Part shown: in pieces, positions 1-32,108 of the stretch
Layout of the letters: every line of letters starts with the position of its first letter
Position numbering within the stretch: position 1 is the first letter of the stretch
DNA from: Flavobacteriaceae bacterium
GTDB taxonomy: Bacteria > Bacteroidota > Bacteroidia > Flavobacteriales > Flavobacteriaceae
DNA: 32,108 bases
Direction: 5' to 3'
Assembly (NCBI GenBank): GCA_002711215.1
Contig: PAHA01000004.1
Coordinates: forward strand, 1 to 32,108
Made by a program: the position numbers and the translations under genes
Notes under the pieces: generated by a model
Told to the model about the DNA's origin: nothing
What the model saw: only the letters and a program-made list of their open reading frames with translations
Databases searched by the model: none

Positions 1-99
1 CCATCTCCATCAGGACTAGTTATAAAACCCATTTTAGATGCACCAACTCTAGCTGCTACTATTTCTGCTTCATAGTAACCATTAAGCATTTTCATATTA
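1..99. repeat. Terminal direct repeat, left copy (circular contig overlap)
   Basis: Bases 1-99 are identical to 32010-32108. The portal reading frame continues through the join: the Met codon starting at 32104 corresponds to base 95, which is 741 bases (247 codons) below the portal start at 836. Ninety-nine is a common assembler k-mer size, so this most likely marks a circular or circularly permuted molecule of 32,009 bp and not a packaged terminal repeat. Confidence 0.95.
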
Positions 100-28779: not shown

Positions 28780-31374
28780 TTAACTAGCAGCACAAAATGA
28801 AACTGCGTGTCTAACAGCAGTATCAATAGATTGTAAAGCCACTACTCTAACTGTACCTGAAGTTGAATTGCTATATGGATCAACAACAATGTCTAATCCA
28901 CCAAACATTCCAATTAGTAAGTCATCAAAGTTACCAAATACATAATTGTTTGCAGTTAATTGTGGTGAAACAACAACTTTATAGCCATTAATTTCATCAT
29001 TAACAGCTACAAATTGTGCTGTATTGGTTGCTTTTTCAGTAGTTTTTAATGTTCCATAGTTAGTTGGATGCACTATATAAGCTAAATCGCCCATTAAAGC
29101 ATTATCAACTCTTACAGAAGTTTCCATACTCACCATCTCAGCGAATGTGGGTGCAGCAGCACTTGAAAGTGATACTGAGTTAATGCCTGAAGTATTAGTA
29201 ATACCTGTTGGATTACCTGAACTTCCTGATCCTTCTAAAGCACCATCATCAATAGCAATAGCCATAGATTGTGCTAAGTCATTTCTAATTAAGTTTTCAA
29301 CATCAATAGATGATTGAATCATTAATTGTCTAGTAACATCTGTAAATGCACCTAGAGTTTTTGGAGAAAGACTTACATTACCTACTGTAAATTCTGATTC
29401 ACCAGCAGCACCACCCTCTGAACTAATAAATGCAGCAGTTGATGCAGCAGTTTTTCTTGGGATTTTTACATCGCCACTTAGTCCATTAAGCATAGTTGCC
29501 ATAGGCATTACAGCAGAGTTATTTCTTAGAACATCAATAAAGTCGCCACCTCTATAGTCTTGACCTATTAAATCACCATCAGAACCAGCAGATAAATCTC
29601 TCTGACTCCAATTTCTCATAACTTCTTCAGGAAGCATTACGCCTTGTGCTGTTTTCCCATAAGCTCTTTGAGCTGCTTCTGAACATTCAAATTCAAAACT
29701 TGCTGCTTCTTGTGCTTTTCTATCTGTAGGATTAGCCATAGCATTGATAGCTCTCATTATGCTAAATCTTTTTGTTTCCTTTTCAGTTAAACCAATTTCT
29801 GAAGGAGTTTCTAAAGGCACATCGTTAGAAATATTTTCTAATAATTCACCTCTAAATTCTTCAACAGAAACACCATCTTTTATAGCTTGATTAGCTAAAT
29901 CTCTTTTGTTGTGTCTTACACCAAGATCAATAATTTCTTTTGAGTTCTTTTGAAATTCTTTTCTTGCTTCATCAACACTTTGCGATCTAACTTCATCAAG
30001 ATTAATTTCTTTATTCTCGTTTTCCATTATTTCCACCTTTGTTGTGTTTAATGTTTGTTTATCTTTAGAACGACCAACTCCAACTAATCTACTTTGATCT
30101 GCTGGAACACTTACAGAACTAATTTCCATAGGCGTCCATGATGCACGATAATAAGTATCATCATCTTTGTTTTCTCGTTCCAGTTTATCTACCCTGTAGC
30201 CAACAGATATATTCATGCGAATACCATCAACTACATCTCTAAAAACTTCTTCAGCAAGAGCAGATTTTCCAAATCTCACTACAGCAGTTGTCCTTTTTGC
30301 TGTCTGATCTAGTTTAAATTCTTCAACTACACCTATTTGCTTTTTCATATCGTGATCTAACAGTAGTGGTGCAGTTTTAGATTGCATAAATTCCATATTT
30401 ATTTCATCTTCAGAATGTCCTAGCACTTCCATACCAAAACTTCTTTCTACTGGGGTTTCACTTGAAACACCAATCCTAACAGTCCTTTTTTCTTCATCAA
30501 TAGATCGAGCCTTAGATAAATCTATGGTTCTGAATTTCATAGGCATTTCTAACACCTTGCGATCTTCTTTCTCCTGTTCTCTATCTTTATCTTCATCTTC
30601 ATCGTGATAAGGTCTATCAGATTCAGTCATTTCCATTTCTTCTTTATCCTCATGGTGCTTTGCAAACTCTATGATTACAGAATCATCAGTTTCATTCACA
30701 TTGAGGATATGTCTATCTTCTTTATCTTTCATAGCTTTTTCCTCGTTAATAGTTGATAAAGTTTGTTGTTCCAATTTTTTAGAATTGAAATCGTTTAAAT
30801 CCCTTATAGGATTAATCTTTGTAAGGGTGCTAAATTTATGACCAACTTCAGTATCAGTTGGTTTACCACCTCTATAAACTTGTATTAATGCTGCTGGATC
30901 ATCTTCTGTACCTGTTACAGAAAAATTGCTATTTGGAATATTGATTTTACCATCTCTTTCAATTTTTATAATCTTACCTCTTGCTCTCCCACCAGCACTA
31001 TTCCAACTTACAAAATCCCCTACTTTAAGTGTGTTTGGTTCTGCTCTATTATCTTCTTTTTTCATTTGTTCTACTAATCTGCTTGACCAAGAATATCCAG
31101 CATCGCCACCCCATAACGCCCATGCTATTCTTCCATTAGAAGGATAGCCTTCTTCACCTGAATCAAAGCCTTCAGCTTCTTTATCAACTTCATGTCTACT
31201 AAAAAAGCTATACATTCTTTTAACTGTTTCATCAGATAAGTTTTCACCATTGACTATTTGCCTTGCTCTAACAGCACCTATTCTAGTTCCACCACGACCA
31301 AGTTCTTCTCGCCAGTCTATGCCTTTTTGTGCTTCAGCTTTCATACCTTCATTTGGTTTAGGCATCTTCTTCAT
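28780..31374 (-). CDS. Accessory domain + HK97-type prohead protease + major capsid protein in one ORF
   Basis: From the ATG at 31374 (AAGGTGGGG upstream) the frame is 864 residues. Residues 20-95 hold a WREELGRGGTRIGAVRARQI / AWALWGGDAG domain found in phage and ART-associated proteins. Residues 117-188 are a DUF2945/HVA1 Tudor-like barrel (VGDFVSWNSAGGRARGKI). Residues 215-285 are an acidic linker. Residues 285-435 are a prohead protease (H341 in LLLDHD, S390 in NISVGY, EISSVSVPAD at 417-426). Residues about 450-530 are a delta/scaffold-like helix region. Residues 531-864 are an HK97-fold capsid protein (DVKIPRKTAASTAAFISSEG to VRVVALQSIDTAVRH). The protease would cut scaffold and itself away. 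Strong in-frame internal start signals occur at 30732 and 30027. The start overlaps the portal stop by 17 bases. Confidence 0.9.
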   Translation of the reverse strand: MKKMPKPNEGMKAEAQKGIDWREELGRGGTRIGAVRARQIVNGENLSDETVKRMYSFFSRHEVDKEAEGFDSGEEGYPSNGRIAWALWGGDAGYSWSSRLVEQMKKEDNRAEPNTLKVGDFVSWNSAGGRARGKIIKIERDGKINIPNSNFSVTGTEDDPAALIQVYRGGKPTDTEVGHKFSTLTKINPIRDLNDFNSKKLEQQTLSTINEEKAMKDKEDRHILNVNETDDSVIIEFAKHHEDKEEMEMTESDRPYHDEDEDKDREQEKEDRKVLEMPMKFRTIDLSKARSIDEEKRTVRIGVSSETPVERSFGMEVLGHSEDEINMEFMQSKTAPLLLDHDMKKQIGVVEEFKLDQTAKRTTAVVRFGKSALAEEVFRDVVDGIRMNISVGYRVDKLERENKDDDTYYRASWTPMEISSVSVPADQSRLVGVGRSKDKQTLNTTKVEIMENENKEINLDEVRSQSVDEARKEFQKNSKEIIDLGVRHNKRDLANQAIKDGVSVEEFRGELLENISNDVPLETPSEIGLTEKETKRFSIMRAINAMANPTDRKAQEAASFEFECSEAAQRAYGKTAQGVMLPEEVMRNWSQRDLSAGSDGDLIGQDYRGGDFIDVLRNNSAVMPMATMLNGLSGDVKIPRKTAASTAAFISSEGGAAGESEFTVGNVSLSPKTLGAFTDVTRQLMIQSSIDVENLIRNDLAQSMAIAIDDGALEGSGSSGNPTGITNTSGINSVSLSSAAAPTFAEMVSMETSVRVDNALMGDLAYIVHPTNYGTLKTTEKATNTAQFVAVNDEINGYKVVVSPQLTANNYVFGNFDDLLIGMFGGLDIVVDPYSNSTSGTVRVVALQSIDTAVRHAVSFCAAS
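30025..30042 (-). promoter_or_regulatory. Internal ribosome-binding site and start for a separate major capsid protein
   Basis: Inside the fusion ORF the sequence AAAGGTGGAAATAATG places AGGTGG five bases before an in-frame ATG (30027). Initiation here gives a 415-residue product: the scaffold-like helix region plus the HK97-fold capsid, a usual size for a stand-alone capsid precursor. It begins precisely after the protease domain. The same AAAGGTG type of signal precedes the gene at 28717. Confidence 0.65.
30730..30745 (-). promoter_or_regulatory. Internal ribosome-binding site and start before the protease domain
   Basis: The sequence ACGAGGAAAAAGCTATG puts GAGGA about seven bases before an in-frame ATG (30732). 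Initiation would yield a 650-residue protease-capsid product lacking the Tudor-like and WREELGRGG domains. Glu/Lys-rich coding favours such motifs by chance, so the support is weaker than for the capsid start. Confidence 0.45.
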
Positions 31375-32108
31375 CCCCACCTTGTATATTAGCTTCAACT
31401 GGTAACTTAGTTCCAAATGGTTGATATGCTATTTCTATACCATATTGTTTTGCTAACTCAACTTCTTTTTGATGTTGTTCAAATAGTTCTTCTGTATCTC
31501 TACCATAAGCAGCACTTATATCTGAATATGTAATTGTTCCATTTTGTAAACCTAATATATTTGATTGCATTTCTTTTAAAGGATCAATCCATGCAAAACT
31601 TCTTGGTATGAAGTTTATTGATCTAGCAAACTTATCAAACTTACCTATTGGTAAATTTATATAACCTGTAGATATTGCCATTTCTAACCATGACTTAAAT
31701 ATAGGATTTATAAAATGGTCTATTACAAACTGTTGATAAACTTGATACATACTTCTATCTTCTAATGCACCTTGTCTAATACTTGAATAGTTTACTGAGG
31801 TTAAATCATTACTTAAAGCGTGATATGAAATATTTAAACCTGATGCAATACTTCTTAATACGCTGGTTGTAAATGGTTCAAATGCAGATGTTGGATGTGT
31901 AGGATCAAAAGAAGTGAATTCCATACCTGCTGGTAATTGTTCAAACACTCCTGCTTGTGCGTTCATAGTAGGATTAAATGTATCTTCTTGTTCACCATCT
32001 CCGACATAACCATCTCCATCAGGACTAGTTATAAAACCCATTTTAGATGCACCAACTCTAGCTGCTACTATTTCTGCTTCATAGTAACCATTAAGCATTT
32101 TCATATTA
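31358..32108 (-). CDS. Portal protein, C-terminal part (joins 1-836)
   Basis: Residues 247-495 of the portal, entering at the window end in the same frame that leaves at base 1. It contains GYYEAEIVAARVGASKMGFI, PAGMEFTSFDPTHPTSAFEP, ASGLNISYHALSNDLTSVNY and SSIRQGALEDRSMYQ, the conserved C-terminal core of lambda-type portals with the clip and stem region, and ends NIQGGDEEDA. Bases 32010-32108 repeat 1-99, so genomic coordinates continue from 1 to 32009. The last 17 bases overlap the start of the protease-capsid ORF, as lambda B overlaps C. Confidence 0.93.
   Translation of the reverse strand, partial: NMKMLNGYYEAEIVAARVGASKMGFITSPDGDGYVGDGEQEDTFNPTMNAQAGVFEQLPAGMEFTSFDPTHPTSAFEPFTTSVLRSIASGLNISYHALSNDLTSVNYSSIRQGALEDRSMYQVYQQFVIDHFINPIFKSWLEMAISTGYINLPIGKFDKFARSINFIPRSFAWIDPLKEMQSNILGLQNGTITYSDISAAYGRDTEELFEQHQKEVELAKQYGIEIAYQPFGTKLPVEANIQGGDEEDA
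32010..32108. repeat. Terminal direct repeat, right copy (circular contig overlap)
   Basis: Identical to bases 1-99. See the left copy for the frame evidence that the contig is circular; unique length is 32,009 bp. Confidence 0.95.

Follow-up and report, generated by a model that had tools for sequence, protein, structure and literature searches.

Results

A single open reading frame encodes the head proteins

The window analyzed here is the whole 32,108-nucleotide stretch of DNA. It has a 99-bp direct repeat at its ends (window positions 1-99 and 32010-32108), and from this terminal repeat the contig probably represents an entire circular phage genome, about 32.0 kb long, that was placed in a bacterial genome bin. 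The portal gene is followed by the head gene of interest and then by the tail-terminator and tail genes. The head gene, at 28780..31374 on the minus strand (864 codons from ATG 31374), joins accessory, S78 protease, delta/scaffold, and HK97 capsid regions, and inspection of the ORFs showed a single, unbroken reading frame from 28780 to 31374. This continuous frame and the in-frame ATGs at 30732 (codon 215) and 30027 (codon 450) had been named in the original prediction, and their coordinates were confirmed.

All domains lie on the minus strand. The front of the protein consists of a phrog_2859-like accessory domain (residues 7-117; 31024..31356) and a Pfam Hva1_TUDOR domain (residues 119-167; 30874..31020). 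A Pfam Peptidase_S78 match follows at residues 331-428 (30091..30384), scoring 21.6 bits against a cut-off of 21 and including His341 and Ser390, which were invariant in 44 sequences and which we take to be the catalytic pair of the protease from knowledge of the family. Residues 450-599 (29578..30027) form a predicted delta/scaffold region with helices from residue 459, and the mature capsid domain occupies about residues 600-864 (28783..29577), as placed by alignment with 8gta, the R4C capsid chain. Pfam Phage_capsid covers residues 611-861 (PF05065, 130 bits), TIGR01554 scored above its cut-off for the capsid part, and phrog_617, a family of fused major head proteins, covers residues 280-862 (E value of 5.5e-145).

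An AlphaFold model built from an alignment of 44 sequences showed a confident protease at about residues 290-435, helices from residue 459, and a C-terminal part of the HK97 type. Foldseek returned 8gta (R4C capsid) as the top match, with GTA and HK97 proheads next. The R4C capsid chain in the PDB is a 268-residue C-terminal piece that aligns to residues 600-859 of the ORF, so that the sequence from Met450 onward would correspond to about 150 residues of delta region followed by the mature subunit.

A 9-bp hairpin (ATGGGTGGA/TCCACCCAT) lies immediately 3' of the fused ORF (window 28759-28736, minus strand). It was found in 29/29 sequences (the window and its relatives) with altered stem sequences, and 4 of the 7 consensus pairs showed compensatory changes. 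The downstream gene probably starts past this hairpin with its own Shine-Dalgarno (SD) sequence rather than at 28780.

Candidate translation starts lie at the domain boundaries

The two internal ATGs had been proposed to fall at domain boundaries, in agreement with the Pfam and PHROG matches and with the AlphaFold model, in which the low-pLDDT linkers at residues 147-222 and 436-459 each hold one of them. Internal start 1 (ATG codon 215; 30730..30732, minus strand), with a predicted 650-residue protease-capsid product, is preceded at 8 nt by GAGG (30741..30744, minus strand). Internal start 2 (ATG codon 450; 30025..30027, minus strand), with a predicted 415-residue capsid precursor as its product, is preceded at 5 nt by AAGGTGG (30033..30039, minus strand). 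Both motifs are as originally described. With an E. coli-type anti-SD assumed, the duplex energies were -5.9 kcal/mol for the first and -7.2 kcal/mol for the second, within the range of other gene starts in the window. The mRNA around both starts (-18 to +12) was predicted to be unusually open, with unpaired probabilities of 0.59 at start 1 and 0.57 at start 2 versus 0.39 at random in-gene positions.

At the upstream end of the ORF, Met4 (ATG 31365) has a stronger SD than Met1 (ATG 31374), at -7.4 versus -3.2 kcal/mol on the same anti-SD assumption, and Met4 is conserved while Met1 is not. The true upstream start is, on this comparison, probably ATG 31365; because Met1 is absent in relatives such as L001 and L005, a longest product of 861 residues is preferred to the 864 first proposed, whereas the 650- and 415-residue products of that proposal remain likely.

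Both candidate starts are conserved in close relatives

From 80 fetched loci of close relatives, a dereplicated set of 33 was obtained. Protease and capsid were fused in the loci with enough sequence, and the front part was freely swapped. One 1.5-kb fragment (L079) has a frame break within the capsid.

At site 1, ATG215 was present in 68/68 loci spanning the site, and GAGG preceded it in all 33 dereplicated relatives despite indels and amino acid changes. The Glu codon 211 within this SD was GAG in 33/33, against a background GAG usage of 17.7% in these genes. GAGG was retained in a relative that reads Glu-Gly-Lys here (L002), in one whose SD is shifted by one codon (L060), and in one where nearly all of the accessory region is missing and GAGG-ATG215 is still present (L028). 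The lowest synonymous-change ratio of the whole gene, 0.23 among 842 seven-codon windows, fell at codons 214-220. The next-lowest windows, in order, were 213-219, 205-211, 201-207, 459-465, and 437-443, and low synonymous substitution was also seen across 201-211, 437-443, and 456-465, the last of these lying a short way past site 450, where suppression was strong.

At site 2, a start codon was present in 33/33 dereplicated relatives, with GTG in one lineage; among the individual loci, 71 have ATG, and in two (L005 and L078) GTG takes its position. L059 has Met at this position in the alignment. The codon preceding the Val/Ile ended in G in 31/33, whether it encoded Lys, Arg, or Glu, and the AGG core is thereby retained in 31/33 relatives. 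Two close relatives (L036 and L053) have the ATG and no recognizable SD.

Start codons and SDs were thus maintained while neighboring amino acids and linker lengths varied. Judged by this alignment, both internal starts are under selection at the DNA level, a pattern that protein constraint does not predict, as would be expected if they function as originally proposed. Because the dereplicated sequences are partly non-independent, these tests overstate significance to some degree.

The accessory region is a mosaic

Domains of the accessory part have been swapped among relatives, giving a mosaic. Upstream of internal start 1, six relatives (L018, L020, L037, L050, L051, and L060) carry a cupredoxin-like insert (THALRFSTTEDGTH...YYYCVNHxGMGGKI) that resembles domains of tail-fiber families, and in other relatives DUF5824 occupies the same spot. 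The ORF had been proposed to derive from three ancestral genes fused with their ribosome-binding sites. This origin was not borne out, since protease and capsid were already fused in 325/325 phrog_617 loci spanning both domains and the accessory part has a mosaic makeup; from the sequences, the accessory-protease junction instead looks like a place where domains were exchanged repeatedly ahead of a start that was preserved.

The linker start recurs across the phrog_617 family

A search with protease and capsid profiles yielded 325 ORFs with the protease, or 124 after dereplication. In the protease-capsid linker, an ATG was present in 123/124 dereplicated members, and the exception (L151) reads AAGGAG-ACCCCT-GTG with an N6 spacer. 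No relative that keeps the fusion and lacks a start codon in this linker was found among the family members examined, a combination that would have argued against the original prediction. The presence of an ATG was nonetheless dropped as evidence in the wider family, as 80% of equal-length control windows also have one. Because ATG alone is weak, the case here rests on the excess of SDs, the substitutions to GTG, and the synonymous test in close relatives.

With a strong SD defined as a duplex energy of -5 kcal/mol or better, the linker held an ATG with a strong SD in 87/124 members versus 47±4 in 300 synonymous shuffles (maximum, 59); the same combination occurred in 11.6% of control windows. 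A strong SD preceded 61% (89/145) of linker ATGs compared with 9% (141/1594) of the ATGs that lie outside the linker in these genes. In R4C, whose head has 415 capsid subunits (PMC10276861), the linker ATG stands after TCGGAGGACGCA. The SD-less members belong mostly to a cyanophage-like group, with a few others. In this group (S-CBS1, S-LBS1, and relatives), the linker ATG is present with C-rich sequence upstream and no recognizable SD (L086, L088, L262, L263, L267, L268, L270, L275, L277, L304, L314, and L322), which suggests a different mode of initiation in their hosts.

A long N-terminal extension is absent in 98/124 dereplicated members. Accessory-bearing distant relatives (CRP-406, CRP-821, L190, L223, and L227) carry site 1 again with a different sequence. 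No relatives split at the domain boundaries were found among the phrog_617 loci and close relatives. Two candidates were ruled out: L167, a capsid ORF with no protease in frame, begins at a contig end, and the annotated split in CRP-823 falls inside the accessory region. In CRP-823 (L085, 2498-5426), a frame break within the accessory region has led to the fused gene being annotated as two overlapping capsid genes; the break is either a real mutation or a sequencing error.

Other protease-capsid fusions have a similar layout

Among Gifsy-2-type ClpP-capsid genes, 19/19 dereplicated relatives have an ATG past the ClpP domain, together with a GAGGA-type SD. Gene l5 of Lactococcus phage c2 has AAAGGAG-ATG at codon 131, just past the protease, and this holds in 27/27 relatives. 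A note in the c2 record puts the N terminus of the mature capsid at codon 206. RcKai has AAAGGAAA-ATG at codon 214, and an SD-preceded internal start is present in the small actinophages Maggie, Penoan, Sputnik, Adaia, and McGonagall. No SD-preceded internal start was found at the linker of the small actinophage fusions of Piku, Schiebs, and Berka (L462, L463, and L464), which belong to a separate family of fusions, so a fused protease-capsid gene is possible without one; these three phages should be of use as natural controls. Across the sequences compared, the nested layout is widespread among fusions, yet not obligatory for every one.

Discussion

In this marine phage, an accessory domain, a head maturation protease, and the capsid are joined in one chain, with preserved start signals hidden inside. 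We consider it very likely, from the conservation of the sites, that the fused ORF represents three in-frame nested genes sharing one stop codon, with products of about 861, 650, and 415 residues. The two shorter products are likely because the sites are conserved beyond protein constraint and the linker start codon is kept in every family member examined.

In the scheme we propose, ribosomes entering at the upstream site would make the full accessory-protease-delta-capsid chain, those entering at ATG215 the protease-delta-capsid chain, and those entering at ATG450 the delta-capsid protein, a complete HK97-type capsid precursor that would serve as the bulk shell subunit. Because the capsid fold is shared, a minority of longer chains could co-assemble and bring the protease into the prohead, along with the accessory domain in the case of the longest chain; inside, the protease would cut off the delta regions and free itself. 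By our estimate, about 50 kDa extra on all 415 subunits would nearly fill the interior of a T=7 prohead, which favors long chains as a minority. Start 1 would allow accessory domains to be swapped without altering the supply of the protease-capsid chain. The production of three proteins, their ratios (with the protease:capsid ratio originally proposed to be set by translation), their co-assembly, and the timing of cleavage and release are features that we infer.

Under an alternative that we regard as unlikely, only the full-length chain would be made, the protease would excise itself at the linkers, with the ATGs and SD-like motifs explained as leftovers or protein-constrained residues. The protease does look active, with His341 and Ser390 invariant, the linkers are disordered in the model and so cleavable, the mature c2 capsid begins well beyond its protease, and Piku, Schiebs, and Berka maintain fusions with no recognizable internal start. 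However, constraint at a cleavage site would act on the protein and not on SD codons, and here GAG211 is fixed, the AGG core outlives Lys/Arg/Glu changes, and the start codon shifts to GTG and not to a random codon. Moreover, the mature capsid starts near residue 600, distant from Met450, and a prohead built wholly of long chains would be nearly filled by the estimate above.

Less probable still, in our view, is that the SD-like motifs slow elongating ribosomes to aid co-translational folding, with no initiation. Such pausing would not require a start codon at a set spacing from the motif, whereas 33/33 close relatives and 124/124 members of the wider family have ATG or GTG, and the mRNA is predicted to be open at both sites; what speaks for pausing is that the modeled domain boundaries place both sites exactly between domains. 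Nor do we give much credence to ATG450 being the sole working start and ATG215 a recently inherited relic. The 98/124 wider-family members without a long N-terminal extension have no need for start 1, but the strongest synonymous constraint in the gene at codons 214-220, the 33/33 conservation of GAGG, and the presence of their own versions of start 1 in accessory-bearing distant relatives are hard to reconcile with a relic.

Nested initiation, our preferred reading, has precedents. Nested protease/scaffold genes such as lambda C/Nu3 are textbook examples, and in both lambda C/Nu3 and Mu I/Z an in-frame internal start within the protease gene yields an N-terminally truncated second head protein. 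The earlier comparison with lambda C/Nu3 is apt: the fused ORF likewise has in-frame, SD-preceded internal starts inside a protease-bearing head gene, conserved beyond protein constraint. However, the inner product in those systems is a scaffold and the capsid gene is separate, whereas the inner product here would be the capsid precursor, and the fused ORF has two internal starts. The S78-type protease, delta-capsid architecture, and HK97 fold, together with the Phage_capsid match, resemble HK97 gp4/gp5, which are two separate genes rather than one fused ORF.

Protease-capsid fusions are themselves already described, in NCBIfam (NF045540 and NF045541), in Arthrobacter phages (PMC5513430), and in Paracoccus prophages (PMC6536676). 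The fused ORF did not reach the NF045541 protease/capsid fusion cut-off (142 versus 525 bits), and its best stretch covered only residues 292-557. The tripartite Gifsy-2 gene (ClpP protease-scaffold-capsid; NF045540/phrog_133) also holds protease and capsid in one ORF but differs in its ClpP-type protease and in its capsid family, the protease of the fused ORF being S78. Phage c2 l5 shares the protease-capsid fusion with an SD-preceded ATG in the linker; it differs in its Gram-positive host and has no recognizable relation in the NCBIfam scan. The closest counterparts are the phrog_617 fusions (R4C, VP882, ep3, S-CBS1, and CRP-811), which are homologous over protease and capsid and share the linker start codon, one-ORF match across both domains, and S78 protease with conserved His and Ser, although most lack the accessory domain and hence internal start 1. 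In the annotations and literature examined, this gene is taken for one undivided capsid or fusion gene, and a search of a limited literature library found no report of a fusion gene in which a conserved internal start yields the capsid protein.

When protease and capsid are fused in one gene, stoichiometry becomes a problem, as a head needs capsid subunits by the hundred and a much smaller number of proteases. This problem would be met by a conserved internal start while the genes stay joined, and such a start would also explain the swapping of accessory domains at the front of a capsid gene. Given that the layout is common to unrelated fusions (S78-HK97, ClpP/Gifsy-2-type capsid, c2, and some small actinophages), we lean toward the view that phages with fused head genes generally express them by initiating internally where protease and capsid meet, such that many database "fusion proteins" may be pairs of nested genes, with the capsid precursor as their unannotated main product. 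The scheme predicts N termini at fixed Met codons in the cultured phages R4C, CRP-811, VP882, Gifsy-2, and c2. If true, it would correct how a major virion protein is annotated in many phages, marine ones among them.
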